Source: Anaerolineaceae bacterium oral taxon 439
Lineage (GTDB): Bacteria; Chloroflexota; Anaerolineae; Anaerolineales; Anaerolineaceae
Assembly (NCBI GenBank): GCA_001717545.1
Contig: CP017039.1
Coordinates: forward strand, 2,232,001 to 2,296,000
DNA: 64,000 nt
Direction: 5' to 3'
The notes beneath the pieces are model-generated. The model was given only the letters and a program-made list of their open reading frames with translations, had not been told where the DNA came from and did not search any database. The first letter of the stretch is position 1. Each line of letters starts with the position of its first letter. The translations under genes and the position numbers were made by a program. Shown here piece after piece: positions 44,555-59,992 of this stretch.

Positions 44555-44591
44555 TCGGTCTCTCCAATGAAAGATAAGATATCACAAAAAA

Positions 44592-44609
44592 CGTTTCGAA
44601 AACGAAACG
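44592..44609. promoter_or_regulatory. Palindrome CGTTTCG-AAAA-CGAAACG upstream of mreB
   Basis: Perfect 7-base inverted arms 38 bases upstream of the mreB start, in the gap that also separates the host genes from the AT-rich island. It could be an operator for the elongation operon or a leader hairpin. Confidence 0.4.
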
Positions 44610-44861
44610 ATTTAATTCCGCTTTAGATTATACCAAAGTTATAGAACCTTTCCGATCTTTCGTCGTTCAGCGCGGCGCGGCAGGATGAATCGGAATACGT
44701 GTTGTCAAAGTAAATGCAGCCAGACCCAGAGCCGGTTCCTGAATCTTTTAGGCTGATATCACAATCTGGAAGGCTTTTAAATTAGTATAGAGACTATATC
44801 TTTTGTAAAAGCATGGTGATAGTATTAGAAAATAACGACAGTGTTTTCACAAGGAGGAATT
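44610..44861. other. Gap between mreB and the AT-rich island
   Basis: About 250 bases with no gene. The left part (to ~44730) has host-like GC-rich patches; from about 44760 the sequence turns AT-rich. Promoters for both mreB and the island's plus-strand operon must lie here. TAGTAT at about 44787-44792 and similar AT-rich hexamers occur, but no pair of -35/-10 boxes is convincing. No direct repeat, integrase or tRNA end was found at the transition. Confidence 0.4.
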
Positions 44862-46466
44862 TTGATTATAAACGGTTCTGCTTCTTGGGATAGTCATGTC
44901 GTAGAAAATTTGGAAAAAAGTTTTCTTGATGGTCAAAAAGTTGACTTTTTTATTGGTTCTCCAAAATCCTTATATGATTGCGCCCATGAAAGCGCTGAAA
45001 ATAACCCCGACAAGATATTTCTTATCGACGAAACTGACGCCAGCTATACGTTTCTGCAAACATTCTCCGATGCTACCCGTTACGCATACTTTTTGAAGAA
45101 AACATATGGGATTCGGAAAGGCGATCGGATTGGATTACTGCTGGATACAAGTTATACAAGCCTTGCCATGATCTTAGCTATAAATGCGCTGGGGGCAATT
45201 TCTGTCATGCTCCCAACAAAATACAAAATAAATGAAATTGCATTGCTTGTCGAAAAAACCACGCCGAAATTAATAATATATGGGGATAAGTTCAGCTTAT
45301 TACCAGATTTCGAGGTCCCGAATTTAAAATTATTCAAAATCTCAAAAGGCGCGCTTGATCTAACGGAAGAAGCTTATAAGGAAAATCTTTCCTGCCTGGA
45401 AACAAATCTTGAAGACCCTGCGATCATTATTTTTACATCGGGGACCACATCGCAAGCAAAAGGAGTTATCTTAAAAAACTATAACGTTATTCATGCCATT
45501 GTTTCTTATGCGCGAATATTAGGTTTTTCTGGAGACGACAGTTCTGTCCTTTGTACACCTATGTACTATGTTACGGGATTAATTGCGATTTTTGGGCTGT
45601 TGTTGTTTTTAGGCGGAACAATTTATATTCATTCAAAATTCAACGCAGTTCGAGTTCTTGAGACGGTTCGTCGTCACAAAATTACTTTTCTTCACGGGTC
45701 TCCTACGGTATTCTATTTGCTTTTAAATGAGCAGGGAAGTTTTCCCGTTTTACCTTCGCTAAAAAAAATAATTTGCGGCAGCAGCAATCTTCCGAAAGAT
45801 CGAATTTCGGATATTTATAGATGGCTGCCGGAAGTTGATATCCGTACCGTATATGGATTGACAGAAACATCCTCTCCCGGCACAATCATGCCGCATAACA
45901 CAGCAACAAGTTCCGCAATAGGATCTTCCGGGAAACCAATTCCGGGATTTTCAGTTAAGATCGTCGATAATACAGGAAATACATTAGGGCAAAATCAACA
46001 CGGCGAAATCTTAGTCAAAGGTACAAACGTATTCAATCATTACTATGGAATTGACGACAGCCCGCTTATTAATGGATGGTTCCCAACCGGAGATATCGGT
46101 TATATAAACTCTCTCAACTATTTATTTATCGTTGATCGCAAGAAAAATATGATAAACCGTGGCGGAGAAAAGATCTGGAGTTATGACATCGAAAATGAGC
46201 TTTGTAATATTCCGGGAATTATTGACGCAGCAGTAGTGGCAATTCCCGACGAGAAATATGGTGAAATCCCTGCCGCTGCTGTCGTCCAAAACCATGAAAA
46301 TAAGCGGACGAAATCTGAAATTATCAATCACTTAAAAACCAGATTGGCGAATTTTCAAATTCCTGAACGTATTTTATTTTTACGAGAAATTCCACAAACT
46401 GCAAATTTAAAACAAGACAAAAAAAAGATTGTCAATTTATTCTTATCAAGGGAGAAAGAAGAATGA
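44862..46466 (+). CDS. AMP-forming acyl-CoA synthetase (class I adenylate-forming)
   Basis: Activates a carboxylic acid to its CoA thioester via an acyl-adenylate. About 534 residues. The ANL motifs are present: phosphate loop IIIFTSGTTSQAKGV (about residue 193), YGLTETSS, TGDIGYINSLNYLFIVDRKK, hinge MINRGGEKIWSYDIE and a C-terminal lysine in TANLKQDKKK. AAGGAGG at 44851-44857 points to TTG 44862; a GTG at 44841 is in frame but overlaps nothing useful. First gene of the island's plus-strand operon, linked to the next gene by ATGA. It resembles long- or medium-chain and crotonobetaine/carnitine-type ligases; substrate unknown. AT-rich codons throughout. Confidence 0.88.
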   Translation: MIINGSASWDSHVVENLEKSFLDGQKVDFFIGSPKSLYDCAHESAENNPDKIFLIDETDASYTFLQTFSDATRYAYFLKKTYGIRKGDRIGLLLDTSYTSLAMILAINALGAISVMLPTKYKINEIALLVEKTTPKLIIYGDKFSLLPDFEVPNLKLFKISKGALDLTEEAYKENLSCLETNLEDPAIIIFTSGTTSQAKGVILKNYNVIHAIVSYARILGFSGDDSSVLCTPMYYVTGLIAIFGLLLFLGGTIYIHSKFNAVRVLETVRRHKITFLHGSPTVFYLLLNEQGSFPVLPSLKKIICGSSNLPKDRISDIYRWLPEVDIRTVYGLTETSSPGTIMPHNTATSSAIGSSGKPIPGFSVKIVDNTGNTLGQNQHGEILVKGTNVFNHYYGIDDSPLINGWFPTGDIGYINSLNYLFIVDRKKNMINRGGEKIWSYDIENELCNIPGIIDAAVVAIPDEKYGEIPAAAVVQNHENKRTKSEIINHLKTRLANFQIPERILFLREIPQTANLKQDKKKIVNLFLSREKEE

Positions 46467-48049
46467 GAAAACCGGTTTTCATGTCGGGAAAAGACGCCGC
46501 AGAATTGATCCAAGACGGCTCGACCGTCTGCACTATTGGAATGACACTCGTATCGGCAGCAGAGACAGTTCTTAAAGCGATCGAAGAGCGGTTTCTAACA
46601 ACGGGACATCCAAATCATCTAACATTATTGCATTCCTGCGGACAAAGTAACAAGGATCGGGGAATTCAACACTTTGCACACGAAGGATTATTATCGCGGA
46701 TTATTGGCGGTCATTGGGGTCTGCAACCCAAAATGATGCAGCTCATTTCGGACAATAAGATACTTGCATACAATTTACCTCAAGGGCAATTAGCTCAGCT
46801 ATTTCGTTCAATGGCAGGCGGAGAACCGGGCAAAATAACAAAGGTTGGTCTCGGAACATACATTGATCCTCGTCTCGGCGGCGGAAAAATGAATGAGAAA
46901 ACTCAATCGATGCCCGATATCGTTGAAGTGATCAACATTGACAATGACGAATTTATGCGATATTTGCCGGTTCCAATCGATATTTGTATCATTCGTGGCA
47001 CATATATTGACGAAAACGGAAATCTAAGCACAGACGAAGAAGCAATGATGCTTGAAGTTTTTCCTGCTGTTTTAGCATGCAAAAAATTTGGTGGAAAAGT
47101 CATCGCACAGGCCAAATATAAGGTAAAAAGCGGGAGTTTACATTGCAAGCGTGTCACAATCCCAGGCGTCTTTATCGATGCCGCCGTAATTTGCCCGAAT
47201 ATTGACGAGGACCACCGTCAAACACATAGTTTCGTTATGAATCCCGCTTATTGCGGTGATATAAAAACTCCGGATGAAAAGACCGATATTTTGCCCATGT
47301 CAGTCCGAAAAGTTATCGGAAGACGCGCTCTGATGGAACTGAAAGCGGATGATATCTTAAATGTCGGGACCGGTATTCCAAGTGATGTAATCGGGCCAAT
47401 TATGGCGGAAGAAGGAATTGAAAATCTCTGTACTGTAACGGTTGAATCCGGAATTTACGGAGGAACCCCCATGGGAGGGATTGATTTTGGTATTGCAAAA
47501 AACAACTTCGCTTTAGTTCGGCATGATGATCAGTTTGATTTTTATAACGGTGCAGGTGTCGACGTTACGTTTATGGGCGCCGGCGAAATGGATCAGTTTG
47601 GAAACGTTAATGCAACAAAATTAGGATCCAAACCAACCGGAGCAGGCGGATTTATTGATATTACAACAAACGCCAAGCATGTAGTATTCTGTTCAACGTT
47701 TACAGGGAAAGGGTTGGAATGCAACTTTGAAAACGATCAGCTCAATATTACACAAGAAGGGAAAATTATCAAGTTCGTTAAATCCGTTCAGCAGATTTCA
47801 TATAACGGTGATATTTCGAGAAATAAAGGACAAAAAATGCATTATGTAACTGAACGTGCAGTTTTTGAACTCCGTCCTGAAGGCCTGGTTCTTATCGAAA
47901 TCGCACCTGGGATAGATTTAAAAACGCAGATTTTAGACCTGATGGAATTTAGCCCCGTAATTGCCAACGACATTAAATTAATGCCAAAAGCGATATTTTA
48001 TGGAAACAGGCCCTATGGTCTCTGCGAATATTTACTTAGCAAATCGTAA
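46463..48049 (+). CDS. Family I CoA-transferase (propionate/acetate CoA-transferase, YdiF type)
   Basis: Moves CoA between acyl groups without ATP. 528 residues, a fused alpha-beta enzyme as in YdiF and propionate CoA-transferase. The first half has GSTVCTIGMTLVSAAETVL, the second half VGTGIPSDVIGPIMAEEG and TVESGIYGGTPMGGIDFG; the glutamate of VESG (about residue 328) is the expected thioester-forming residue. Translation is coupled to the upstream synthetase (ATGA). Having both a ligase and a transferase gives two ways to activate the same or related acids. Confidence 0.9.
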   Translation: MRKPVFMSGKDAAELIQDGSTVCTIGMTLVSAAETVLKAIEERFLTTGHPNHLTLLHSCGQSNKDRGIQHFAHEGLLSRIIGGHWGLQPKMMQLISDNKILAYNLPQGQLAQLFRSMAGGEPGKITKVGLGTYIDPRLGGGKMNEKTQSMPDIVEVINIDNDEFMRYLPVPIDICIIRGTYIDENGNLSTDEEAMMLEVFPAVLACKKFGGKVIAQAKYKVKSGSLHCKRVTIPGVFIDAAVICPNIDEDHRQTHSFVMNPAYCGDIKTPDEKTDILPMSVRKVIGRRALMELKADDILNVGTGIPSDVIGPIMAEEGIENLCTVTVESGIYGGTPMGGIDFGIAKNNFALVRHDDQFDFYNGAGVDVTFMGAGEMDQFGNVNATKLGSKPTGAGGFIDITTNAKHVVFCSTFTGKGLECNFENDQLNITQEGKIIKFVKSVQQISYNGDISRNKGQKMHYVTERAVFELRPEGLVLIEIAPGIDLKTQILDLMEFSPVIANDIKLMPKAIFYGNRPYGLCEYLLSKS

Positions 48050-48060
48050 AAGGAGAAGAT

Positions 48061-48804
48061 ATGAGATTAAAAGATAAAGTTTCAATTGTCACAGGCGCAA
48101 GTCGCGGCTTAGGAAAAGGCATCGCGATCAAGTTAGCCGAAGAAGGTTCGAAAGTTATTTTGGTAGACATAACGGCTGCAACAGATACCTTCGAAGAAAT
48201 CAAAGCTAAGGATGGAACTGCCTTTATTTACACAATGGACATCACAGATGAAGGCGAGGTCGAAAAAATGATTGAATTCACAATCGAGAAGTGCGGAACA
48301 TTAGATATCTTGGTGAACAATGCCGGCATCAATCGAGATGGAATTCTCCATAAGATGACGAAAAATAATTGGAATGATGTTATCAACGTCAACCTGACCG
48401 GTACTTTTCTCTGCACCAGAGAAGCGTTGAAATATATGCGTTCTAAAAATTATGGGCGTGTTATCAATATTTCTTCCGGCAGCTGGTTGGGGAATATAGG
48501 ACAAGCCAATTATGCAGCTTCAAAAGCTGGGGTTGTCGGATTGACAAAAACAGCTGCAAGAGAAAATGCTAAAAAAGGTATTACATGTAATGTCATCTGT
48601 CCCGGTTTCATTGAAACAGATATGACGCTTCGCCTTAAAGATGTTAATGATGGGGCAGCGTGGGATAGCATGATGTCGAGAATTCCAATGGGATATGCAG
48701 GGAAACCAACTGATGTAGCTAACCTGGTTGCATTTCTTGCATCGGACGAGGCTTCATATATCACTGCCGAAGTTATTAATGTCGGCGGGGGAATGATTGT
48801 ATAA
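48061..48804 (+). CDS. SDR family 3-oxoacyl reductase (FabG/PhaB-like)
   Basis: 247-residue NAD(P)-dependent reductase. The TGASRGLGKGIA loop, NNAG motif, and the catalytic triad in NISSGSWLGNIGQANYAASK (S, Y, K) are complete, with a C-terminal INVGGGMIV like FabG. In this operon, between a CoA-transferase and a thiolase, it most likely interconverts a 3-hydroxyacyl-CoA and a 3-oxoacyl-CoA. GGAGAAGAT precedes the ATG. Confidence 0.9.
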   Translation: MRLKDKVSIVTGASRGLGKGIAIKLAEEGSKVILVDITAATDTFEEIKAKDGTAFIYTMDITDEGEVEKMIEFTIEKCGTLDILVNNAGINRDGILHKMTKNNWNDVINVNLTGTFLCTREALKYMRSKNYGRVINISSGSWLGNIGQANYAASKAGVVGLTKTAARENAKKGITCNVICPGFIETDMTLRLKDVNDGAAWDSMMSRIPMGYAGKPTDVANLVAFLASDEASYITAEVINVGGGMIV

Positions 48805-48815
48805 AGGAAAAAAAT

Positions 48816-50006
48816 ATGAATCTAAAGGAATGTGTAATCGTCAGCGCCGCCAGAACTCCCGTAGGAAATTTTGGTGGAAGCTTAAAAGATATCAGTGCAA
48901 TAGAATTAGGTGCGATGGTCGTTAAGGAAGCTGTTCGCCGCGCAGGCATACCAACAAACCTTATCGACGAAGTCATCGTCGGTCAAGTCGGACAAATCGC
49001 TGAGTGCGGTTTTATTGCAAGAGCAATTAGTTTAAAAGCCAATTTTCCAGAAACAACGACCGCGTTTTCCGTGAACCGTCAATGTGGATCCGGACTTCAA
49101 GCAATTGCGAACGCAGTCATGGAAATTCAAACAGGATTTGCAAATATCGTCGTTGCGGCCGGAACCGAAAACCTTTCTCAGCTTCCATATTATGTTCGCG
49201 ATGCCCGCTGGGGCGCCAGAATGGGGCATAAAGTTTTCGAAGATGGCGTCATTGATATTCTTACTTGGCCCCTTTCAAACAGCCATAATGGAATTTCCGC
49301 AGAAAATGTTGCAAGACAATACAACGTATCTCGGGAGGAACAAGACAATTTTGCATTAGAAAGCCATCGCAAAGCTGTCGCTGCAATCAAGGATGGAAAG
49401 TTTAAAGACGAGATACTGCCGGTTGAATTAGTAGACAGAAAAGGACGAGTCACTATTTTCGACAAAGACGAAGGTCCGCGAGAAAATCAGACAATTGAAC
49501 AGCTCGCGAAATTAAAACCATGTTTTGTAAATGATGGGAAAGGAACGGTCACAGCCGGAAATTCTTCGAGTCTGAATGATGGAGCGGCAGCTATCGTGAT
49601 TATGTCACGAGAAATGGCTCAAAAACTCAAGATAAAGCCCCTAATGACGATACGCGGATTTTCTGTCGCGGGGAATAGTCCCGATCTAATGGGTTATGCC
49701 CCGAAATTTTCCAGCGAGAAGCTTGCCCAAAAGCTTGGTATTGATTTGAAAAAAATTGATATGTTTGAAATTAATGAAGCTTTCGCAAGTCAAGCGTTCG
49801 CCGTTAGGCGGGATTTAGGTTTAGATATGGATAGAGTCAATATCTATGGCGGCGGGATCTCAATCGGGCACCCGATCGGTGCGACCGGTTGTATTCTTGT
49901 AACGAAAGTTTTATACGAGCTTCAAAGATCCGATAAAAAAGACGCTATGGTAAGCATGTGTATTGGCGGCGGGCAGGGAATCAGTATGTACTTTGCAAAA
50001 GATTAG
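48816..50006 (+). CDS. Thiolase (acetyl-CoA C-acetyltransferase family)
   Basis: Cleaves a 3-oxoacyl-CoA to acetyl-CoA and a shortened acyl-CoA, or runs in reverse. 396 residues. The acyl-accepting cysteine lies in NRQCGSGLQAI (about residue 90), the histidine in GGGISIGHPIGATG, and the second cysteine in CIGGGQG near the C-terminus; NEAFA is present. It follows the SDR by 11 bases with AAAGGAAA as ribosome-binding site and is the last gene before a terminator. Together with the SDR it forms the last two steps of a beta-oxidation-like route. Confidence 0.93.
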   Translation: MNLKECVIVSAARTPVGNFGGSLKDISAIELGAMVVKEAVRRAGIPTNLIDEVIVGQVGQIAECGFIARAISLKANFPETTTAFSVNRQCGSGLQAIANAVMEIQTGFANIVVAAGTENLSQLPYYVRDARWGARMGHKVFEDGVIDILTWPLSNSHNGISAENVARQYNVSREEQDNFALESHRKAVAAIKDGKFKDEILPVELVDRKGRVTIFDKDEGPRENQTIEQLAKLKPCFVNDGKGTVTAGNSSSLNDGAAAIVIMSREMAQKLKIKPLMTIRGFSVAGNSPDLMGYAPKFSSEKLAQKLGIDLKKIDMFEINEAFASQAFAVRRDLGLDMDRVNIYGGGISIGHPIGATGCILVTKVLYELQRSDKKDAMVSMCIGGGQGISMYFAKD

Positions 50007-50030
50007 CATTCAAAAAAACACAAAATTCCA

Positions 50031-50074
50031 GAGGGTGCTTATTAGTTTTACGACTCTAATAAACACCCTCTTTT
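50031..50074. terminator. Shared terminator of the two convergent island operons
   Basis: Arms 50031-50045 and 50056-50070 pair over 15 bases with one mismatch around a 10-base loop, followed by TTTT on the plus strand. It lies 25 bases after the thiolase stop and 50 bases beyond the converging substrate-binding-protein stop. Confidence 0.85.
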
Positions 50075-50124
50075 GATTACTTCATCTGCAAGAGAAAGAA
50101 TTTTCCTTCGAAATCATTATTGAT

Positions 50125-51405
50125 TTATTCATATGCCGCGGGATAAATAACTTCAGCTTGGGCAGCATCTTCAGGATATACAGCGACAAGATTACCGCCT
50201 TGGAACTGCCCAATGGTTAATTTCCCAGCTAAATTCGTATGCAGATATTCGTAACTGCCAATCGTCGTACCGTCACAAAACTCGATTACGTTGTAAGGCA
50301 TAATTATTTCAGTGCCGTCATAGAATTTATCCTTGATCGAAATCTTAATTAGTTCATCTCTGATATTGTCATGGGTCAATTCACCGCCGGCATCTAGAAT
50401 ATTCTTTGCTGCTTCAGCAATTACGTAAACAACTGTGAACGCTTCGGCAGAATGACCATTCATAGCTTCTTTCGAAAATTCCTTGAAAGCATCAGAAATC
50501 TTAACACCCTTCGCTCCTTCGATAAATTCTGTTGCAACGGATATACCGTTGGCGCCATTCCCAATCGCTTTAGCATAAGAGGCCTCAGTATAACCATTAC
50601 CTTTACAAATCATTATCGCAGGTTTGTACCCTTGTTCAGCCATGGTGTTTGTCAGCAGAATCGCGTCGGACACGTACTGATCCGCAATCAGGACATCAGC
50701 ATTGGCATCCTTTAATTGCAAAACTTCAGATGTCAAGTCAGCAGCGCCAGAAGAATAAGTCACGATACTTACAACAGTAAAATCGTTTTCGTCCGCAAAA
50801 TGCTTAGCCCATTCAATCGTCTGTTGTCCGACCTCTGAGTTGTCGGCACAAATCGCCATTGTCTTCAGATCGAGGCTGTTCGCGTCGCTATAAGATCGAC
50901 CGAATGCGACCATGTCCCGCATAAACATCATATTTGTCGGTGCAAGCCGGAAAAAGTACTGATACCCATTCGCAGTCAAAGCATCAGATGTCGCATTTGC
51001 AGTAATAAAAGGAACGCCGTATTGTTCGCCTATCTGCGATGCGGTCAAAGTTACGCTGGATTGATAAGCGCCCATAATAATGTCAACTTTTTCCTCATTA
51101 ATCAATCGTTCAGCTTCAACCATTCCGACAGCACTGTCCCCTTGCGAATCGCCCCAAACAACTTTAAGCTGATATCCGTTGATTCCTCCGCTTGCATTAA
51201 TTCTATCAATCGCGAAATTAATTCCGAACTGCATTGTCTTTCCGGAATCCGCCATTGAACCACTTAAAGGATAAAGACCACCGATCAAAATGGTTTTATC
51301 CTCATCTGTCTGCGATCCGGAAGACTTTTTATCGCATCCTGAAAAAGCCATCGTTATAACCAGCAGACATAAAACAACAGCATAAAACGTTTTTCTATTT
51401 TTCAT
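50125..51405 (-). CDS. ABC transporter substrate-binding lipoprotein (Liv/HAAT type)
   Basis: Receptor of the island's importer, 426 residues. The signal peptide ends in a lipobox (ITMAFSGC, cysteine at residue 24), so it is membrane-anchored by lipid, unlike the soluble paralogue at 13403. The mature chain begins ILIGGLYPLSGSMADSG, the first strand of the Peripla_BP_6 fold, and NEEKVDIIMGAYQSSVTLTA follows. It is divergent from LivJ at the ligand pocket level as far as can be seen by eye. Encoded last in an operon with glycerate kinase and an SDR, it probably binds the island's organic-acid substrate rather than leucine. AAGGAG precedes ATG. Confidence 0.88.
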   Translation of the reverse strand: MKNRKTFYAVVLCLLVITMAFSGCDKKSSGSQTDEDKTILIGGLYPLSGSMADSGKTMQFGINFAIDRINASGGINGYQLKVVWGDSQGDSAVGMVEAERLINEEKVDIIMGAYQSSVTLTASQIGEQYGVPFITANATSDALTANGYQYFFRLAPTNMMFMRDMVAFGRSYSDANSLDLKTMAICADNSEVGQQTIEWAKHFADENDFTVVSIVTYSSGAADLTSEVLQLKDANADVLIADQYVSDAILLTNTMAEQGYKPAIMICKGNGYTEASYAKAIGNGANGISVATEFIEGAKGVKISDAFKEFSKEAMNGHSAEAFTVVYVIAEAAKNILDAGGELTHDNIRDELIKISIKDKFYDGTEIIMPYNVIEFCDGTTIGSYEYLHTNLAGKLTIGQFQGGNLVAVYPEDAAQAEVIYPAAYE

Positions 51406-51449
51406 TTTTTTCTCCTTTTATAAATTTACGAAAACATATGTTGTTTTCG

Positions 51450-52172
51450 TTAGAAACCAAGATATGCTTTTTTGATATCAGGATTTAGCAGCAATTCTTC
51501 AGCTTTTCCTTCAATCGAAATTCGGCCGTTCTCAATTACATACCCCCTGTCGGCTAATTTCAGAGCTTTTCTTACGTCCTGCTCAACAAGTATGATCGCA
51601 ATGCCTGATTCGCTCGCTATTTGCCGGGATATATCAAAAATATTATCCACAATATTCGGAGCAAGTCCCAATGATGGCTCGTCAATAAGCAGCAGCTTCG
51701 GCAACCCCATCACACCCCTGGAAAAAGCGACCATCTGTTGTTCTCCTCCTGATAAAGAACTGGCTAATTGATTCGCACGTTCTTTTAACTTAGGGAACCA
51801 GGAAAATACCTTCTCCAGCGATTCCTTCTTCCTGCGTCTCGATTCAGAGCTGCTGCATCCTAATTCAAGATTTTCATAAACCGACATTTCCGGGAATAGC
51901 TGCCGTCCTTCAGGAATAAGGATGATACCGTGATCAATATATTCACGCGCCGTTCGCCCAGCCAAATCGATATCCTTATAACGAATCGATCCACCGCAAG
52001 GATTTATCATCCCGCTGCAAGCATTAACTGTCGTACTTTTACCCGCGCCATTACTCCCGACAATCGCAACAATTTCTCCTTCATTAATATATATCGACTC
52101 TTTCCAAATCACTTGTATATCGCCATATTTAACTTCAAGGTTTTCTACTTCAAAAAGTCTATCGCCCGACAT
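51450..52172 (-). CDS. Island importer ATP-binding protein, LivF type
   Basis: 240-residue ATPase with Walker A GSNGAGKST near residue 39, signature LSGGEQQMV near residue 139, and Walker B LLIDEPSLGLAP. It parallels LivF at 9639 but is AT-rich and clearly not a recent copy. It lies 2 bases after the LivG-type gene and before the substrate-binding lipoprotein. Confidence 0.9.
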   Translation of the reverse strand: MSGDRLFEVENLEVKYGDIQVIWKESIYINEGEIVAIVGSNGAGKSTTVNACSGMINPCGGSIRYKDIDLAGRTAREYIDHGIILIPEGRQLFPEMSVYENLELGCSSSESRRRKKESLEKVFSWFPKLKERANQLASSLSGGEQQMVAFSRGVMGLPKLLLIDEPSLGLAPNIVDNIFDISRQIASESGIAIILVEQDVRKALKLADRGYVIENGRISIEGKAEELLLNPDIKKAYLGF

Positions 52173-52174
52173 AT

Positions 52175-52915
52175 TTAATGGTCTCCTTTCCCCAAATAAA
52201 TTTCAATTACTAATGGGTTATTCATAACCTGTTCGGGTGAACCCTCAGCTACCTTTTCTCCGTGATGCATTACGATCACCTCCTCGCAAAGATTCGTAAC
52301 CGCATGCATAACATGTTCGATCAATAAGATCGTCGTCCCGTTTTCATTAATCTTGCGAAAAAGGTCAATAGCTTCACCAATTTCAGTCGTGTTTAATCCG
52401 GCCATTACCTCATCCAATAGCAGGAGATCAGGATCGGTTGCTAAAGCTCTTGCGACTTCAAGCCTTTTTCTATAAGGCGTTCCCATTTCTCCAGGCAGCC
52501 AACTACGACGTTCAAAAAGACCGGTAAATTGAAGAATCTCCTCAGCAAAACTTTTAGCAGCGCTCGCAGACCTGAATTTTTTCCGACCAAATAAGGCGCC
52601 AGAAATAACGTTATCCAATACCGACATATGCCGCAGCGGTTTCATAATTTGAAAAGTCCGCGCAATTCCCATATCTGAATAACTATGAGAGGGCATTCCG
52701 GTGATATCTTTCCCTTTGTAAAAAATTTTGCCGGAAGTAGGAACGAAAACACCGCTAATCATATTAAAAACCGTCGTTTTTCCTGCGCCATTTGAACCGA
52801 TAATGCCGGTAATCGAACCTTCTTCAACCGTAAAACTAACGTCTGAAACTGCCCGTAAACCGCGAAAATTCTTAGTCAAGCGCTCAATTTTAAGCATTTC
52901 AGAGATATCGCTCAT
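52175..52915 (-). CDS. Island importer ATP-binding protein, LivG type
   Basis: 246 residues. Walker A GSNGAGKTTVFNMISG near residue 38, MGIARTFQIMKPL in the LivG-specific position, and Walker B LLLLDEVMAGLN (valine-methionine in place of the usual proline-x). The signature is replaced by LPGEMGTPYRKRLEVARALA, a pattern common in LivG proteins that lack LSGGQ. The start overlaps the LivM-type stop by ATGA. Confidence 0.9.
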   Translation of the reverse strand: MSDISEMLKIERLTKNFRGLRAVSDVSFTVEEGSITGIIGSNGAGKTTVFNMISGVFVPTSGKIFYKGKDITGMPSHSYSDMGIARTFQIMKPLRHMSVLDNVISGALFGRKKFRSASAAKSFAEEILQFTGLFERRSWLPGEMGTPYRKRLEVARALATDPDLLLLDEVMAGLNTTEIGEAIDLFRKINENGTTILLIEHVMHAVTNLCEEVIVMHHGEKVAEGSPEQVMNNPLVIEIYLGKGDH

Positions 52916-53934
52916 TGTTCAACTCCTTCCGCATCAAGAAGCGGACCTCGTTCAAGCGTGAGTTTCTTTTTTTGCTGCATTGAATTCCACCAGCCAAATA
53001 ACCCAGATGGTTGGAATAAAACGACCGCTATCAAAATAATAGAATAGACGACTAAGTTTGAACCAGGGAGCTGGCTTCCAAGCGTTGAATTCAGATATTG
53101 TGATAGAGGGACAATAATCAACGATCCTAAAAGCGGTCCTTCCACCGTGCTGATTCCGCCGATAACAGCAGGCAATACGAATTCCAATGATTTATTCTGC
53201 ATCATCAATTCTGGACTAATATACCGGACATAGCAGGCATAGAACACACCCATTATCCCGGTCAGACCACAGCTTATAAAAGCTGCGATCATTTTATATT
53301 TTTGTGGCTCAATACCTATCGCGCTCGCCGTTCCTTCATCTTCACGAATTGTTTTAAATGCGTATCCAAGTTTAGATTCACTAATATACCTTACGATAAG
53401 ATAAAGAATAAAGAGTAGAAATAATCCAACATAGAAGTAGTGGGTTTTGTTCCTGAAAGCCAGCATCCAAAACGATTCTTCTCTCACAATTTTAAGGATC
53501 ATGCCTTGTCCGGAACCGACAAATTCCCAATTTATAAAAATATTCCGAAACGCCTCGCCAAAGGCAATTGTTGCAAGTGAAAAGTATGCCCCTTTCAATC
53601 CGAAACACGGACTCAGCAATAAGGTCATTACAATTCCTACAACAAAGAAAGCAATTATCATCGAAATCCATGGGGAAATATCCAAAAAACTATATAATAC
53701 TGCGCCAATGTAGGCTCCCAAAGCGGCAAACGCACCATGGCCAAGCGAAATTTGTCCGATCATCCCACCTAAAATACTCCACGCAAGAGAACAACCTGCG
53801 ATATAGACCGTCATGATAAGAATGGCCAGTATGTATGGCTTCTGAAATACAATAGGAAGTGTAGCCGAAACAAGAAAACAGCAAACAATAACTATGATTG
53901 ACTTATTTTTAGAAAAGAATTCCCTTGCTTCCAT
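52912..53934 (-). CDS. Island importer permease, LivM type
   Basis: 340-residue membrane subunit with about nine spans and the LivM loop YAFKTIREDEGTASAIGIEP (around residue 195), the ATPase-docking segment. The final charged tail (MQQKKKLTLERGPLLDAEG) is longer than the LivM at 11201 has in sequence terms. Gap to livH is 3 bases. Confidence 0.9.
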   Translation of the reverse strand: MEAREFFSKNKSIIVIVCCFLVSATLPIVFQKPYILAILIMTVYIAGCSLAWSILGGMIGQISLGHGAFAALGAYIGAVLYSFLDISPWISMIIAFFVVGIVMTLLLSPCFGLKGAYFSLATIAFGEAFRNIFINWEFVGSGQGMILKIVREESFWMLAFRNKTHYFYVGLFLLFILYLIVRYISESKLGYAFKTIREDEGTASAIGIEPQKYKMIAAFISCGLTGIMGVFYACYVRYISPELMMQNKSLEFVLPAVIGGISTVEGPLLGSLIIVPLSQYLNSTLGSQLPGSNLVVYSIILIAVVLFQPSGLFGWWNSMQQKKKLTLERGPLLDAEGVEQ

Positions 53935-53937
53935 TTG

Positions 53938-54813
53938 TTAAGCCCTTCTTTTTGCCTGGATTCGATGTTTTATAATCAGGATCACTACAAAGCACAAATA
54001 AACTAAGGTTTCTTTATAAGCAGAGCCGACAACAACGGCGCCAACCGTCTCAAGACAACCAAGAACCAGGCCTCCAAAGAACCCACCTACAATATTCCCC
54101 AACGTTCCAATTGTCACCACAATAAAAGATCTGGTTCCATACGTAACTCCCACTGTGGGAAAAACATAGTAATAAGACATCAGACAAGCCCCGGCTATGC
54201 CCGCAATCGCGGCGCCCAACCCATAAGTACACGCATAAACAATTTTTGAATTTATCCCGCAGACATCGGCGCCAAGTCTATTTTGTGAAGTTGCGCGGAT
54301 TTGTTTTCCGATAGTTGTTTTTTTAAGGAACAAGAATAATAACACAGTGATAATTATCAATATTCCGAAGCTGATTAATTTATTTGCGCTGATCAGTGCG
54401 CCGCCGATCGAAATTGTTGTATTACCAAGATGGCTCGGCACCGTTTTGTAATTCGTACCAAAGATTAGTTGCATGCTGCTGCTAAATAAAATACCAAAAC
54501 CCGCGGTAAGAAATAACACATTTGTATCATCATCGTCGATCCGAATTGATCTCGTAATTAATGTCGCTTGCAGAAGAACGCCGAAAATGAACATTGCAAT
54601 CACAACGATCGGAATTGATTCGAACGGGCCCAGACCGATCATCTCATATAAGACATAGGAACAGTACATTCCTAACATCAGTAATTCGCCCTGACAAAAG
54701 TTAATCACTTTCATAACGCCGAAAATAATCGTTAAGCTCATCCCAATCAGAGAATAAATCCCTCCAATCATGATCCCATTGAGCAAAGCTTGGAACAGTG
54801 TATTTAAATTCAT
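53938..54813 (-). CDS. Island importer permease, LivH type
   Basis: 291-residue membrane subunit. The N-terminus LLNGIMIGGIYSLIGMSLTI and the conserved GVMKVINFCQGELLMLGMY are of the LivH type (the usual NFAHGE is NFCQGE here). The coupling loop IRATSQNRLGADVCGINSKI lies near residue 180. It starts 15 bases behind the SDR gene, with a strong AGGAGG site. Confidence 0.9.
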   Translation of the reverse strand: MNLNTLFQALLNGIMIGGIYSLIGMSLTIIFGVMKVINFCQGELLMLGMYCSYVLYEMIGLGPFESIPIVVIAMFIFGVLLQATLITRSIRIDDDDTNVLFLTAGFGILFSSSMQLIFGTNYKTVPSHLGNTTISIGGALISANKLISFGILIIITVLLFLFLKKTTIGKQIRATSQNRLGADVCGINSKIVYACTYGLGAAIAGIAGACLMSYYYVFPTVGVTYGTRSFIVVTIGTLGNIVGGFFGGLVLGCLETVGAVVVGSAYKETLVYLCFVVILIIKHRIQAKRRA

Positions 54814-54827
54814 ATCTTTTCCTCCTT

Positions 54828-55598
54828 TTACTTGCCAAGGTAACCGCCATCAACCGGGATAACCGCTCCGGAGATGTATTCTGAAAGATCCGAAGCAAGA
54901 AATGCAGCTAAACCCTGAATATCTTCAACCTTTCCCCAACGTCCCATTGGAATCCTCGATGTAATTTCTTGATAAAAAGAGGGGCTGTTGCTCCTTATAT
55001 CTTCTGTTAACTCGGTTTCGATATATCCGGGAGCAATCGCGTTAACCCTAATTCCTTTCTGAGCCCATTCATTTGACAATGCTTTTGTTAATTGTGCGAC
55101 ACCTCCTTTACTGGCCGAATATGCAGGGATGAAAACACTACCGAAAAAAGAGCACATCGACGCAATATTGATGATGGTGCCTTTTCCTTGTTGGCACATT
55201 AATTTAGCCACTTTCTGTGAAACAAAAAAGACAGCATTTAAGTTTATTTCCAATATTTCACGCCATTTTTCTTCGGGATAATCCAATGCCGAACTTCGAA
55301 ATTGAGCCCCTGCGGAATTCACTAAAATATCAATTTTTCCGCCCAAATAATCTCTGGTAATTTCTATACACTTATCGAAATTATCAGTTTTCATCAGATC
55401 AACAGGAACAAAATTTACTTTTGCATCTTCTGTAGACAAACTTTTAGCAACTTCTTTACCCGATTCACTTCTGCCCCAAATGACAACTTCGGCGTTCAAT
55501 TGATGGTAAGCTTTCGCAATACTCAGGCCTATACCCCTTGTGCCGCCGACAACAAGAGCTTTCTTATTTAGTAAATTAAGTTCGCCAATACCTAACAT
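54828..55598 (-). CDS. SDR family oxidoreductase (gluconate/2-deoxygluconate dehydrogenase-like)
   Basis: 256 residues. It has the VGGTRGIGLSIA nucleotide loop, NSAG (normally NNAG), and the catalytic ASMCSFFGSVFIPAYSASKGG (serine, tyrosine, lysine in order). The IRVNAIAPGYIETELTE segment and DGGYLGK end are typical of polyol/gluconate 5-dehydrogenases. It overlaps the glycerate kinase gene by 7 bases (ATGTTAG). In this operon it is likely to oxidise or reduce a hydroxyacid on the way to glycerate; the substrate is unknown. Confidence 0.87.
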   Translation of the reverse strand: MLGIGELNLLNKKALVVGGTRGIGLSIAKAYHQLNAEVVIWGRSESGKEVAKSLSTEDAKVNFVPVDLMKTDNFDKCIEITRDYLGGKIDILVNSAGAQFRSSALDYPEEKWREILEINLNAVFFVSQKVAKLMCQQGKGTIINIASMCSFFGSVFIPAYSASKGGVAQLTKALSNEWAQKGIRVNAIAPGYIETELTEDIRSNSPSFYQEITSRIPMGRWGKVEDIQGLAAFLASDLSEYISGAVIPVDGGYLGK

Positions 55599-56743
55599 TC
55601 TTTTTCCTTAAGTTGAATTCCAACGTTAATCGCTCTCATTACGCGTTCTGATGCATTCTCCAAATATTTTCCGGCATGAACACAAGCCTCCTCAATTGTC
55701 ATAGGTTTACAGACAGATGGTTCAAGCGTCGAAATTCCCGATTTATATAATGGCTCAACCCCATCAGAAATTGAACCGCCAAGCGCAATAACGGGCTTGT
55801 TATATTTTGTTGATCTCGACCTGATTCCCGCAATCACTTTCCCAAAAACTGATTGTTCATCAATTTTCCCCTCGCCGGTCACAACTAAATCCGCCCATTC
55901 GATTAATTTGTCAATTTCCAACATATCCATGACGAATTCAACGCCGCTTAGAAGTTCCGCGTCTAAAAAACCTAATAAAGCAAATCCGACCCCACCAGCA
56001 GCCCCGACGCCAGGGATTTGCCTGATTTTTTTATGAATTGATTTCTCAACAATATCTGCGTAGTGACTTAAATTTTCATCGAGGATCAAGACCTGGTCTT
56101 CATTTGCGCCTTTTTGCGGTCCATAAATAAATGAAGCTCCATTTTTACCGATCAACGGATTATTAACATCGCATAAAACTTTTAATTTTGATTCGCGTAA
56201 TCTTCTATCAAGACCTTCAGTATCAATTATAGATACCAAGCCTAATGATCCGCCCCCAAAGGAAATTTCATTGCCAGAATTATCTTTGAACGAAACACCC
56301 AAAGCTTGAAGCATACCTACGCCACCGTCATTTGTAGCAGATCCGCCTATACATAGAAAAATCTCTCGGCAACCTAAATCTAATGCGCTCTTTATTAGCT
56401 CGCCAAAGCCAAAGGAAGTCGCGTTCATAATATCCAGTTTATCCATATCGATCAATGTCAACCCTGAAGATTCAGCCATTTCGATAATAGCGCTCCCATT
56501 TTTTAATTCGCCAAACCTTGCAAAGATAAGATCACCGTTAGGGTTACGAACTTGAACCTCGTGATATTTGCCCCCTAAAGACTGTACCAACGAGTCCATC
56601 GTTCCTTCCCCGCCATCTCCTATCGGAGCGCAGACAATATTCGATTCAAGAAAAACCCTACGAATGCCAGATTCAATTCTTGCCGAAGCCTCAAGACTGG
56701 AAAGACTTCCTTTAAATGAATCAGGCGCAATAAGAATATTCAT
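55592..56743 (-). CDS. Glycerate kinase (GarK/GlxK family)
   Basis: Phosphorylates D-glycerate to phosphoglycerate. 383 residues. The family start MNILIAPDSFKGSLSSLEAS, the motif CIGGSATNDGGVGMLQALG near residue 120, NNPLIGKNGASFIYGPQKGA and VGAAGGVGFALLGF are all present. ATG 56743 follows AAGGG by 9 bases and matches the family start. It is the first gene of the minus-strand island operon and is preceded by a CdaR-type regulator; the same pair (CdaR, GarK) controls and completes sugar-diacid breakdown in E. coli. Confidence 0.92.
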   Translation of the reverse strand: MNILIAPDSFKGSLSSLEASARIESGIRRVFLESNIVCAPIGDGGEGTMDSLVQSLGGKYHEVQVRNPNGDLIFARFGELKNGSAIIEMAESSGLTLIDMDKLDIMNATSFGFGELIKSALDLGCREIFLCIGGSATNDGGVGMLQALGVSFKDNSGNEISFGGGSLGLVSIIDTEGLDRRLRESKLKVLCDVNNPLIGKNGASFIYGPQKGANEDQVLILDENLSHYADIVEKSIHKKIRQIPGVGAAGGVGFALLGFLDAELLSGVEFVMDMLEIDKLIEWADLVVTGEGKIDEQSVFGKVIAGIRSRSTKYNKPVIALGGSISDGVEPLYKSGISTLEPSVCKPMTIEEACVHAGKYLENASERVMRAINVGIQLKEKEC

Positions 56744-56791
56744 ACAATAGAACCCTTGTATTTTTATCAAAAGTCTGTTATTAATTGAGCC

Positions 56792-56808
56792 GTGAATTTT
56801 TCGTTCAC
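56792..56808. promoter_or_regulatory. Palindrome GTGAA-CGAAAAA/TTTTTCG-TTCAC in the glycerate-kinase leader
   Basis: GTGAA (56792-56796) and TTCAC (56804-56808) are exact inverted arms with a 7-base centre, between the regulator and the glycerate kinase start and close to the expected promoter (TTGACG about 45 bases further upstream on the minus strand). A candidate site for the adjacent regulator. Confidence 0.4.
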
Positions 56809-56896
56809 TGTAAGAACGATGATAAGTTGGCTACCCTTTTTTGGCAATGTTATGAGAAATAATTTTGATACCGTCAAATTTGGTTCGAGGAATAAT

Positions 56897-58051
56897 TCAC
56901 GAATTGTTAAACCCATTAATTTCAGAGAAATACAGTGCTAATAGCAATGGCCCAATCTCACTGATTTTACGCGGGTTATATCCTGTAACAAGCCTGATTT
57001 TTTCTAACCTGTACTGTAACGTATTTTTGTGAATATAGAGTTTCGCAGAAGCTTTTGATAAAGACCCATCGTATGTAACATAATAATGCAAACATTCCAT
57101 CATTCGTGAAATATCTTCGTCTGAGCACCCTGAAAATATACTCCTGATAAATTTCTTACGAGTATCAGCCTGTATATCATTTAAAATCATGTAGATATTC
57201 TTGCTGTTATACATCAATATTTTTTCATGATTAGCTAATGTGCGAGATATTTGACATGCCATTTCAGCTTCTCTGAATGAACGCCTTACATCATCAATGA
57301 CCTCATTTGCCAAAGTGCCAATACCGGTAACCAAACGGCAGTTGAATGCTTCTTCAACCTCAGTTGAAAGTCTTTCAAGAAAAGAAAAGACACTATTCTG
57401 ATCCTTAGAAACAAAGAAGCAGACTAACTTCATTCCCATAACGAAAAGAAGTTGTTGTGAATTCCTCTCAATGGAATTCCTGAAAATGTCGGAAATCTGC
57501 CGGAATTTTTTCCGGATTTCGGTTTCATCCGGATTTTCCACCTCATCAAAATCGACTTGGGTTACAGAAATAATTCGAGGCAAGTCTAATTGAATACCCA
57601 AAATATTCGCGTTTTTTGATAGAGTGCCGCTATCCTGATTATATAACCATTCTAAAGCAAAATTATTCCTGGCGTCAATCATAACTTGCTTTTGATTTTC
57701 GCGAATCGCCTCCGATATGAGGATTTCTGTCATTTTTTTGATTACCGACCCTAATGCGCCCACTTCTTCGACAGAACCGGTAATCCCGACAACGCCTACG
57801 CATTGTTCATTAATAAATAGAGGCAAATTAATTCCGTTTTTTGCACCGATAAAATTATCCGAAGAATCGACCGTCAATTGTGTAAGTTTCTCTTCAATGA
57901 TTCTTCTCGCCCCGCCATGGAGCGTTCCAATCCGACTGATATCTGTGCTCGCAATAATTACACCCAATTCATCCATAATATTTATATGTTTGTTGATTAC
58001 ATCGCCAATCTCGTCCGCTATCCGCTGCATTTTTGTTTTCGAAATTATCAT
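56897..58051 (-). CDS. CdaR/PucR-type transcriptional regulator (sugar-diacid recognition domain)
   Basis: 384 residues. The N-terminal ~130 residues are a putative sugar-diacid recognition domain (KMQRIADEIGDVINKHINIM, GTLHGGARRIIEEK, VGVVGITGSVEEVGALGSVI). The middle is the GGDEF-like CdaR spacer, and residues ~330-384 form the PucR-type helix-turn-helix (YVTYDGSLSKASAKLYIHKN, TLQYRLEKIRLVTG). In E. coli CdaR activates galactarate/glucarate/glycerate genes. The start is ATG 58051 (AGAGGAT site); an upstream TTG is less likely. It faces the same way as the operon it precedes and probably controls it in response to the acid substrate. Confidence 0.92.
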   Translation of the reverse strand: MIISKTKMQRIADEIGDVINKHINIMDELGVIIASTDISRIGTLHGGARRIIEEKLTQLTVDSSDNFIGAKNGINLPLFINEQCVGVVGITGSVEEVGALGSVIKKMTEILISEAIRENQKQVMIDARNNFALEWLYNQDSGTLSKNANILGIQLDLPRIISVTQVDFDEVENPDETEIRKKFRQISDIFRNSIERNSQQLLFVMGMKLVCFFVSKDQNSVFSFLERLSTEVEEAFNCRLVTGIGTLANEVIDDVRRSFREAEMACQISRTLANHEKILMYNSKNIYMILNDIQADTRKKFIRSIFSGCSDEDISRMMECLHYYVTYDGSLSKASAKLYIHKNTLQYRLEKIRLVTGYNPRKISEIGPLLLALYFSEINGFNNS

Positions 58052-58290
58052 AAGATCCTCTTTCCTATCCAAAGACGAACTGAATAATTCATGATAAGCA
58101 CACCAATTCGTACAATATCTCCCCTTGTAACCAGAAAGTATTTATCAATAATTATCTGACATCAATTTTTGGAGACTCATTTTTTTAATGGATTATATTC
58201 GACTCTATAAGAGAAAACGATAGAGCGTATTATTTGACCCATCTTCCATCCCCACGCAATTCCGAAGCCAATTGTATTAAAATTACAGGT
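58052..58290. other. Right boundary of the AT-rich island
   Basis: About 240 bases without a gene. AT-rich up to about 58225, then GC-rich. A small inverted repeat CTCTAT...ATAGAG (58203-58225 region) lies near the change. TTGTAC/TATAAT-like hexamers for the regulator occur but no pair is strong. No integrase, transposase or att-like duplication was found. Confidence 0.4.
58278..58283 (+). promoter_or_regulatory. -10 box of a probably leaderless ftcD transcript
   Basis: TAAAAT ends exactly 7 bases before the ATG at 58291. AGG touches the ATG and is too close to act as a ribosome-binding site. No clear -35. Confidence 0.4.
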
Positions 58291-59193
58291 ATGAAGAAAA
58301 ACTGCCAGCCAACCCTGATCGAAGCCGTTCCCAATTTCTCCGATGGGCGTAATCCCGAAACGATCGAAGCGCTCCGGAACGCCGTCCGCCTGACCCCGTC
58401 CGTCCGTCTCGTCAACGTTCATCAGGACGCCGACCACAACCGCTCCGTGTTCACGCTGATCGGGGAAGGCGAACCGCTGCGCGAATGCGCGCTGAACCTC
58501 GTCGGCGTCGCCGCCGAACGGATCGATCTCGAAACCCAGCGCGGCGTTCATCCGCGAATCGGCGCAACCGACGTCGTCCCGTTCGTTCCGCTGCGGAACG
58601 CGTCGATGGACGACTGCGTCCGCTTAGCGCGCGAGGCAGCGCGCCAAATTTCCGAACGCTATCCGATCCCGACGTATCTTTACGCGCTGGCGTCGATCCG
58701 CCCGGATCGAACGAAACTGTCTGAGCTGCGCCGGGGAAATTATGAGCGACTGAAAACGGCGATCGGGAACGATCCATATTTCGAACCGGATTTCGGCCCG
58801 AAACGGCTGGCCTCCGCCGGGGCGACCGCCGTCGGCGCGCGCCCGATCCTGATCGCGTACAACGTTTTTCTCGTTTCGAACCGGGTCGACCATGCGAAAG
58901 AAATCGCAAAAAAAATCCGCGAATCGAGCGGCGGACTTCCGGGCGTTCAAGCGCTCGGGCTTCCCGTCGGCGGTCGGGCGCAGGTCTCAACCAACCTCCT
59001 CGATTACCGGAAAACGCCGCTGAATACGCTCTTCGCCGCCGTCAGGACCGAAGCTGAGAAACTTGGCGAATCGGTCGAGCGCGCCGAGCTGATCGGCTGC
59101 CTTCCCGCCGCCGCGCTCGAAGGCGTGACACCGGAAGAAATCGGCCTGTTCGACTGGGACGAGAGTCGGTTGCTCGACCGCAGCGTCGGATAA
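58291..59193 (+). CDS. ftcD: Glutamate formimidoyltransferase
   Basis: Transfers the formimino group of formiminoglutamate to tetrahydrofolate in histidine degradation. 300 residues, only the transferase half; the cyclodeaminase domain of the animal enzyme is absent and no separate gene for it follows. Family motifs: ECVPNFSEG-like AVPNFSDGR, DADHNRSVFTLIG with the catalytic-site histidine, HPRIGATDVVPFVP, and VSTNLLDYRKTPL. No other hut gene lies in the window. Start ATG 58291 is supported by alignment and by a -10 box 7 bases upstream. Confidence 0.93.
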   Translation: MKKNCQPTLIEAVPNFSDGRNPETIEALRNAVRLTPSVRLVNVHQDADHNRSVFTLIGEGEPLRECALNLVGVAAERIDLETQRGVHPRIGATDVVPFVPLRNASMDDCVRLAREAARQISERYPIPTYLYALASIRPDRTKLSELRRGNYERLKTAIGNDPYFEPDFGPKRLASAGATAVGARPILIAYNVFLVSNRVDHAKEIAKKIRESSGGLPGVQALGLPVGGRAQVSTNLLDYRKTPLNTLFAAVRTEAEKLGESVERAELIGCLPAAALEGVTPEEIGLFDWDESRLLDRSVG

Positions 59194-59236
59194 CTTCAGC
59201 GCGGCCCTTTTGACATTATTTTTAAGGAATAAGATC

Positions 59237-59992
59237 ATGCCAGCTTCAAAAAAAAACCGGGACGCGTCCCGCGCGCTCCTTTCCGTTTTGAAAACCGAAA
59301 AAACCGCCCGACTGAACGGCGGTATTTATCATAAGGTCCAGATCGAACTGACCTATAATTCAAACCATATCGAGGGCAGCCGTCTGACAGAAGAACAAAC
59401 CCGATCCATTTTCGATATCCACGCAATCGAATCAGATCAAAGTCCGGTTAACGTCGATGATATTGTCGAAACCGCGAATCATTTCCGCTGTGTCGATCGG
59501 ATCATCGACCTTGCAAGATATCCGTTAACGGCCGCGCTGATCAAAAAGCTGCACGGAATCTTAAAGAATGGAACGAGCGACAGCCGTCTCGGATGGTTCG
59601 CTGTGGGCGATTATAAGCGTCTCCCAAACGAAATCGCCGGAAAAGCGACGACCGCCCCGGAAGACGTTCCCAACGCAATGAAACGGCTGATCGCCGATTA
59701 CGAAGGGAGCAAAACGAAAACGCTCGACGACCTGCTTGGTTTTCACTATGAATTTGAATCGATCCATCCTTTCCAGGACGGGAACGGACGTATCGGGCGG
59801 CTGATCTTGTTTAAGGAGTGCTTACGGTGGAAAATCGTTCCATTTATTATCAGCGACGAACTGAAATTCTTTTATTATCGGGGGCTGCGCGAATGGAAGT
59901 CCGAACGAGGATACCTTCGCGATACCTGCCTCACGGCGCAGGACACTTTCAAAAAAAAGCTCGACTACTTCGAGATCGTTTATGACGACTGA
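59237..59992 (+). CDS. Fic family AMP-transferase with N-terminal inhibitory motif (class II)
   Basis: 251 residues. The Fic core motif HPFQDGNGRIGR (about residue 176) is complete, including histidine, the acidic residue, GNG and both arginines, so it should be able to transfer AMP to a target hydroxyl. A class II inhibitory helix is visible at SNHIEG (about residue 42, pattern S/T-x3-E-G/N), so the protein is self-contained with its own brake. No small antitoxin gene lies next to it. ATG 59237 is preceded by AAGGAA. Target unknown. Confidence 0.9.
   Translation: MPASKKNRDASRALLSVLKTEKTARLNGGIYHKVQIELTYNSNHIEGSRLTEEQTRSIFDIHAIESDQSPVNVDDIVETANHFRCVDRIIDLARYPLTAALIKKLHGILKNGTSDSRLGWFAVGDYKRLPNEIAGKATTAPEDVPNAMKRLIADYEGSKTKTLDDLLGFHYEFESIHPFQDGNGRIGRLILFKECLRWKIVPFIISDELKFFYYRGLREWKSERGYLRDTCLTAQDTFKKKLDYFEIVYDD

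Follow-up and report, generated by a model that had tools for sequence, protein, structure and literature searches.

The locus described here raises the question of what a Liv-type ATP-binding cassette (ABC) importer transports when its genes are arranged in one run with that of a glycerate kinase (GK). It lies within a window of 64,000 nucleotides from Anaerolineaceae bacterium oral taxon 439 (contig CP017039.1, positions 2,232,001 to 2,296,000); "the window" denotes this whole stretch of DNA, and the coordinates below refer to it. The original prediction held that the ligand is a carboxylic acid convertible to glycerate and not a branched-chain amino acid. Our analysis supported this proposal, and the logic of the enzymes encoded nearby would narrow the ligand to a 2-deoxy-pentonate. 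We consider it probable, if far from assured, that the importer genes belong to a horizontally acquired island for the catabolism of 2-deoxy-D-ribonate or a close 2-deoxy-aldonate, with the Liv-type importer bringing in the acid. The computed basis of this reading is the gene content, the protein families, an arrangement of genes (order and spacing) that recurs in a Klebsiella cluster, a CoA-transferase clade and an empty site in relatives.

The run comprises seven genes, preceded by a regulator gene:

56897-58072, minus strand: CdaR/SdaR-type sugar-diacid regulator (Diacid_rec, 125 bits, and HTH_30, a PucR-type helix-turn-helix domain)
55592-56743, minus strand: GK (Gly_kinase/TIGR00045; 457 bits with Gly_kinase and 443 bits with the NCBIfam model, over the cut-off of 168)
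54828-55598, minus strand: KduD-like short-chain dehydrogenase/reductase (SDR; adh_short_C2; KduD models best, 269 bits, below cut-off)
53938-54813, minus strand: LivH-type permease (BPD_transp_2; best NCBIfam model UrtB, below cut-off)
52912-53934, minus strand: LivM-type permease (BPD_transp_2; best NCBIfam model UrtC, below cut-off)
52175-52915, minus strand: LivG-type ATPase (ABC_tran and BCA_ABC_TP_C)
51450-52172, minus strand: LivF-type ATPase (ABC_tran; 218 bits with the LivF model against a cut-off of 441)
50125-51405, minus strand: substrate-binding protein (SBP), a lipoprotein (Peripla_BP_6, 180 bits)

As had been claimed, the genes from GK to SBP all run in one direction, and their tight spacing was borne out. 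GK and SDR overlap by 7 bp and LivM and LivG by 4 bp, and the gaps measure 14 bp between SDR and LivH, 3 bp between LivH and LivM, 2 bp between LivG and LivF, and 44 bp between LivF and SBP. By Pfam the importer set of the Liv/HAAT type is complete, with a Peripla_BP_6 SBP, two BPD_transp_2 permeases and two ABC_tran ATPases, and an N-terminal lipobox-like signal (AFSGC, read by eye) agrees with the earlier description of the SBP as a lipoprotein. GK, whose start was placed at ATG 56743 (a TTG at 56770 gives a longer open reading frame [ORF]), was the sole PF02595 match of the genome in a whole-genome profile search. The regulator gene is located 153 bp upstream of GK on the same strand; neither this gene nor a convergent four-enzyme operon nor the composition break enclosing them had been listed before. 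The GK-transporter transcription unit may start further upstream, with the regulator at its head. Promoter and terminator counts were near chance (38 versus 33.9 expected and 13 versus 14.2, respectively), and none is claimed.

The convergent operon (44.86-50.0 kb) runs toward the GK-transporter operon, with 118 bp separating its end from that of the SBP gene:

44862-46466, plus strand: class I adenylate-forming acyl-CoA ligase, proposed deoxyribonyl-CoA synthetase (AMP-binding, 234 bits)
46463-48049, plus strand: family I CoA-transferase, proposed to transfer CoA from glyceryl-CoA and so yield glycerate (CoA_trans)
48061-48804, plus strand: FabG-like SDR, proposed deoxyribonyl-CoA 3-dehydrogenase (over the cut-off of NCBIfam FabG PRK05653.1-3)
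48816-50006, plus strand: BktB-like thiolase, proposed 3-keto-deoxyribonyl-CoA thiolase (Thiolase_N/C)

The ligase probably starts at TTG 44862, behind an AGGAGG recognized by eye, in a frame that is open from GTG 44841, and BktB was the best NCBIfam subfamily for the thiolase, below cut-off. By Pfam, neither an acyl-CoA dehydrogenase nor an enoyl-CoA hydratase is encoded in this operon, and therefore, following the chemistry of beta-oxidation, the substrate should already bear a 3-hydroxyl group. Since thiolysis would take place in the same block that holds the only PF02595 GK of the genome, the acyl group released beside acetyl-CoA would most simply be glyceryl. A substrate giving these two products would be 3,4,5-trihydroxypentanoate, i.e., a 2-deoxy-pentonate.

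According to Price et al. (2019, PMC6365646), the cluster BWI76_RS23695-23730 of Klebsiella michiganensis M5al is required for growth on 2-deoxy-D-ribonate and encodes a CoA-synthetase, a CoA-transferase, a beta-hydroxyacyl-CoA dehydrogenase, a thiolase, a major facilitator superfamily (MFS) permease, a lactonase, a second MFS permease and a glycerate kinase. The same paper (PMC6365646) describes the permeases as important and the lactonase as only somewhat important, and proposes deoxyribonyl-CoA and 3-ketodeoxyribonyl-CoA as intermediates, followed by glyceryl-CoA and acetyl-CoA. Our comparison was made via the K. pneumoniae locus L022 (CP125156.1), which was equated with the K. michiganensis cluster by its gene order and contains a sugar-diacid regulator gene after GK. 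In L022 as in the island, the order is ligase, CoA-transferase, dehydrogenase, thiolase, with a 4-bp overlap followed by two gaps of 11 bp each; in both, GK belongs to the cluster and is adjoined by a sugar-diacid regulator, annotated in L022 as sugar-diacid-recognition. The identities between island and L022 proteins were 55.6% for the CoA-transferase, 54% for FabG, 53% for the thiolase and 36% for the ligase. The clusters differ in that two MFS permeases and a lactonase are present in Klebsiella only, and the Liv-type importer and the KduD-like SDR in the island only (no MFS permease was found among the 12 island genes), and in that the GK-transporter operon is convergent in the island, whereas the Klebsiella GK is co-directional. 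In tblastn searches of a plasmid collection, ranked by query covered times identity, the same three K. pneumoniae records came first for the CoA-transferase (55%, 385 records; the other 37 of the best 40 of the 385 reached at most 44.5%), the thiolase (53%, 1550 records; at most 47% in the other matches listed) and the ligase (35%, 2781 records). A specific kinship with the Klebsiella enzyme is seen for the CoA-transferase, in the tree described below; the thiolase and the ligase have the top plasmid rank, and FabG, GK and the regulator are not especially close. The comparison supports the assigned pathway type, most firmly through the CoA-transferase and the gene order, and suggests that the island works like a Klebsiella-type cluster with another transporter. 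In a copy of the deoxyribonate-type cluster on a plasmid of K. pneumoniae (L023:13586-14949), an ISKpn1-family transposase gene lies between the thiolase and the first MFS permease.

A maximum-likelihood tree of 49 CoA-transferases placed the island and Klebsiella enzymes in one clade with a support of 100/100, and the clade was recovered with 100/99 in a tree of 44 rows, to which two 48% matches from the phylum of the Variovorax genome had been added and from which seven near-copies had been dropped. Its sister group consisted of seven loci of the same phylum, in every one of which (7/7) an ORF homologous to FabG adjoins the CoA-transferase ORF or overlaps with it. In 400 genomes of the phylum, 41 CoA-transferases were found at E<=1e-100, counting that of the island itself, and the best other one was 47% identical. 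At 39 of 42 other CoA-transferase places (all except those of G344, G410 and G414) and at one family match, no adjoining ligase or GK was detected at E<=1e-12 in a neighbour check that pruned overlapping ORFs and thereby lost two CoA-transferase ORFs; without pruning, no adjoining ligase was detected at E<=1e-30 at these loci, several stretches of which stop at contig ends. In 398 genomes of the Variovorax phylum, two CoA-transferase matches (48%) were obtained, which adjoin ORFs of the tripartite ATP-independent periplasmic (TRAP) type, named by eye, and weakly matching homologues of thiolase, FabG and ligase. A search of 369 genomes belonging to the same class as the Variovorax genome of locus L020 gave no match at E<=1e-150 and, having no positive control, is uninformative. 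At one of the seven sister loci, in another class of the island's phylum, FabG, CoA-transferase and thiolase genes (L059:7062-11696) lie beside a ribokinase-like ORF and, next to it, a LacI-type regulator ORF (11738-12805), both named by eye.

Both operons and the regulator gene are enclosed by one composition break:

44555-58233 (borders approximate), no strand: low-GC inserted block of ~13.5 kb, marked by a break in GC content and in GC content at third codon positions (GC3)

The GC content falls from ~55% in the window to ~41% across about 44.6-58.2 kb, with 37.5-44.5% in individual genes inside the block, and GC3 is 33.5-43% in the 12 island genes versus 68-74% in five genes outside. The flanking genes are located at 43493-44554 (left) and 58234-59193 (right). 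Ten genus relatives were inspected, with three more that matched the right flanking gene left out; in five of the ten (G010, G008, G001, G002 and G009), the flanking genes lie 0.6-3.0 kb apart without the block, and the left one is 89-93% identical to that of the island genome (82% in one piece). In the other five relatives, the left gene was absent from the stretch examined. None of the 13 genus relatives searched had a match to the CoA-transferase at E<=0.001. The absence of the block between neighbouring flanking genes in relatives is most simply explained by an insertion with which both operons were gained together. Searches for the means of insertion gave no tRNA gene in the window, no repeats within either border stretch, no transposase or integrase among the 12 island genes (Pfam), and a longest word common to the two border stretches, direct or inverted, of 10 bases (after shuffling, 9.0 on average and at most 14). 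Next to the right border, between the genes at 58234 and 60035, the window contains an ORF (59210-59992) with the motif HPFQDGNGRIGR, which we presume to be of the Fic type. In three genus relatives (L125, L126, L127), the genes corresponding to 58234 and 60035 adjoin without this ORF, which may represent a further small acquisition at this site.

The ligand of the importer would follow from the surrounding genes and from the SBP's lack of LivJ-like features. The island importer has the same ABC architecture and families as E. coli LivKHMGF/LivJ, but its SBP falls outside LivJ/LivK in the tree, lacks an acid in the column of LivJ Glu226, and is encoded in an operon with GK. With the LivJ/K model PRK15404 it reached 92.5 bits, whereas the cut-off is 477; the SBP encoded at 13403 of the window also stayed below it (113.5 bits). 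It was 25-28% identical to E. coli LivK/LivJ and, in line with what had been stated earlier, unlike the protein at 13403 (only ~23% identity). In the SBP tree, it grouped with two SBPs of genus relatives (99/98) within a set of ten (95/93) that excluded E. coli LivJ and LivK; the grouping with binders of leucine, isoleucine and valine that had been named as the argument against a carboxylic acid was not seen, LivJ and LivK being the only characterized ones in this tree. The alignment omits L019, L020 and L105, where no ORF reached E<=1e-5, and the tree omits L003, which is the same as 13403. Glu226 of LivJ presumably contacts the ammonium group of the ligand. In a MAFFT alignment, on which this position rests, the island SBP has Asn in the Glu226 column and Lys two columns earlier, which may be read as "not LivJ-like" and as nothing beyond that. 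The scores of the importer proteins were far below the LivJ/K, LivH, LivM, LivF and LivG cut-offs, and the permeases were nearer to urea-transporter models, likewise below cut-off. The best sequence match of the SBP in the PDB was 8wch. Apart from the protein itself, no SBP at E<=1e-60 was found in 400 genomes of the phylum, and a scan of a collection of genome contigs with the SBP, aimed at further Liv-plus-deoxyribonate clusters, returned two weak relatives among 46 stretches.

Liv-type operons of two genus relatives (L026:6804-11647 and L027:5704-10615, from G006 and G013) encode proteins 42-57% identical to those of the island transporter genes; their SBPs share the Lys-x-Asn motif, and no GK is present in the stretch of ~20 kb. 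Three alphaproteobacterial SBPs that are 30-32% identical to the island SBP (L101, L103, L104) are encoded in clusters containing a "putative hydro-lyase" and, for two of the three, oxoprolinase-type genes, which suggests a further ligand outside the branched-chain amino acids. On a plasmid of Thermus thermophilus AA2-2 (L106:7971-14016), a related ligase gene (33%) lies directly upstream of a Liv-type importer, a second case of this pairing, but alcohol and succinate-semialdehyde dehydrogenase genes come next, and no CoA-transferase, thiolase or GK is annotated in the stretch examined. In Rhodopseudomonas palustris, leucine, isoleucine, valine or short amides produced a shift in hardly any of 22 non-matching COG0683 proteins (PMC3223731). 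Among the publications listed by the literature searches, none describes a Liv-type importer of deoxyribonate; in the passages of PMC12543098 and PMC8551123 that were examined, the word "deoxyribonate" occurs just in a reference title and in the name of another compound.

From these data we infer the following sequence of events. The Liv-type ABC transporter, consisting of the lipoprotein SBP, LivHM and LivFG, would import the acid and thereby fill the slot of Klebsiella's two MFS permeases. The ligase would form the CoA thioester, the FabG-like SDR would oxidize C3, and the thiolase would split the 3-keto-CoA ester into acetyl-CoA and glyceryl-CoA. The CoA-transferase would then free glycerate, possibly handing the CoA to the next substrate molecule, in which case ATP would be needed mainly for priming. 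Phosphorylation by GK would give phosphoglycerate for glycolysis. The CdaR-type regulator would control at least the GK-transporter operon, and possibly both operons would be co-regulated. The complete picture, in which a Liv/HAAT importer of a polyhydroxy aldonate (2-deoxyribonate) and a full CoA pathway with CoA recycling moved as one island into another lineage, is put forward tentatively and is in our view slightly less likely than not.

A different published deoxyribonate route, that of P. simiae and Paraburkholderia, uses an SDR dehydrogenase and BKACE, with an sdaR-type regulator beside GK in P. simiae (PMC6365646). It resembles the pathway proposed here in the substrate, the end products and the glycerate kinase, but differs in that the island route would form the CoA ester before oxidation. 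No match to BKACE (PF05853) was found in the island's genome (the control matched in 1 of 14), so that the CoA route remains the only published one. For an exchange of transporters there is a precedent in three rhizobial plasmid loci, in which a sugar-type ABC importer lies in front, where Klebsiella has MFS permeases. They encode an SDR, a 3-hydroxyacyl-CoA dehydrogenase, a lactonase (63-65% identical to that of Klebsiella) and a 3-keto-5-aminohexanoate cleavage protein, which we take to be a member of the BKACE family. Of five lactonase contexts, three contained a BKACE-type cluster and two did not (Pseudomonas oryzihabitans and Pseudonocardia). In two rhizobial deoxyribonate-like clusters, the gene directly after GK codes for an enoyl-CoA hydratase/isomerase-family protein (L121:13708-14790 and L120:17799-18863; the Pfam assignment to ECH_2 was checked for L121 only), which is a candidate for the glyceryl-CoA hydrolase, an enzyme listed as unknown by the GapMind authors (PMC9007349).

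Several results weigh against a deoxyribonate island. GK is 38.6% identical to the GK of the Klebsiella cluster versus 45.8-45.9% to GarK of E. coli and Klebsiella, and the regulators of the island and L022 are 22% identical. FabG is as close to seven phylum loci in which it lies beside related CoA-transferases (51-54%) as to Klebsiella (54%); the next ligase match after Klebsiella (35%) comes from Thermus (33%); and the thiolase search counts two records outside those listed whose best place has 60-80% identity. The nearest NCBIfam models of the ligase and the CoA-transferase are a long-chain-fatty-acid ligase and Staph_FadX, a fatty-acid enzyme, respectively, both below cut-off. No SMP-30 lactonase is encoded among the 12 island genes, and the one good SMP-30 protein of the genome, outside the island, shares 26% identity with the Klebsiella lactonase. 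Being convergent, the operons might also act on two different substrates, and the KduD-like SDR has no assigned role in the pathway. On the side of the SBP, the Glu226 column carries no acid in 15 of 22 rows and an acid in 7 of 22, among them the SBP at 13403. The nearest SBPs (36-38%) occur in the genus relatives G006 and G013, whose genomes have no CoA-transferase match, so that this branch of SBPs works in other settings too and has no fixed link with the pathway. Finally, no second genome with a Liv importer and the same enzyme set was found in a sampling that left most phyla, Bacillota included, outside.

The SDR of the GK operon bears on the alternative that fares best, although we regard it as unlikely. 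It retains the island and its enzyme logic and assumes the import of another stereoisomer or a precursor, such as 2-deoxy-xylonate, 2-deoxyribose or its lactone, or a KduD-type sugar acid, which the KduD-like SDR would convert. The position of this gene between GK and LivH, and the kinship of its product with sugar and sugar-acid dehydrogenases, would fit such a role; its best PDB match is 4hp8, named 2-deoxy-D-gluconate 3-dehydrogenase. The protein is 31% identical to the SDRs of the three rhizobial deoxyribonate-like clusters versus 37% to Klebsiella FabG. It is therefore probably not a deoxyribonate dehydrogenase of the rhizobial kind, a function that we considered and found unsupported as judged by these identities; this leaves a separate step to be explained, and the enzyme's substrate may be a precursor, for instance deoxyribose. 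Against the conversion of such precursors stands the lack of an island lactonase to follow a 1-dehydrogenase, and membership in an SDR family is a poor predictor of the substrate.

Alternatively, two unrelated modules might travel together, namely a short operon for 3-hydroxy acids or acetoacetate (ligase, CoA-transferase, FabG and thiolase) and another for glycerate or a hydroxy acid, equipped with a Liv importer of its own. The convergence of the operons, the lack of special nearness of GK and the regulator to the Klebsiella cluster, and the fatty-acid character of the nearest curated ligase and CoA-transferase models speak for this assumption, as does the location of related CoA-transferase genes near acyl-CoA dehydrogenase genes, i.e., in beta-oxidation settings, in four of the plasmid loci examined. 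It fails to account for the clade formed by the CoA-transferase with an enzyme of the deoxyribonate-cluster type and for the identical order and spacing of four genes. Moreover, the set is rounded out by GK and a sugar-diacid regulator, just as in L022, and both operons lie in one low-GC block that is missing from the same site in relatives. A pair of unrelated modules travelling together is quite unlikely in our view. That an ordinary branched-chain amino acid importer merely came to lie beside catabolic genes is highly improbable, even though all transporter parts belong to the Liv family and LivF and LivG were the best NCBIfam models of the two ATPases, because the LivJ/K model score and the tree position of the SBP, on which we rejected such a ligand as the leading reading, are joined by the low scores of the other components, by a GK gene that overlaps the SDR gene and heads the run, and by three other Peripla_BP_6 proteins over cut-off in the genome.

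If the assignment to 2-deoxy-D-ribonate or a close 2-deoxy-aldonate is correct, a polyhydroxy acid would be added to the substrates of the Liv-type SBP family, and the island SBP would come with a specific and testable ligand prediction. The CoA-type deoxyribonate route, genetically shown in one Klebsiella strain according to PMC6365646, would extend to another lineage. In addition, the compact island would make the unassigned step from glyceryl-CoA to glycerate testable with one purified CoA-transferase.

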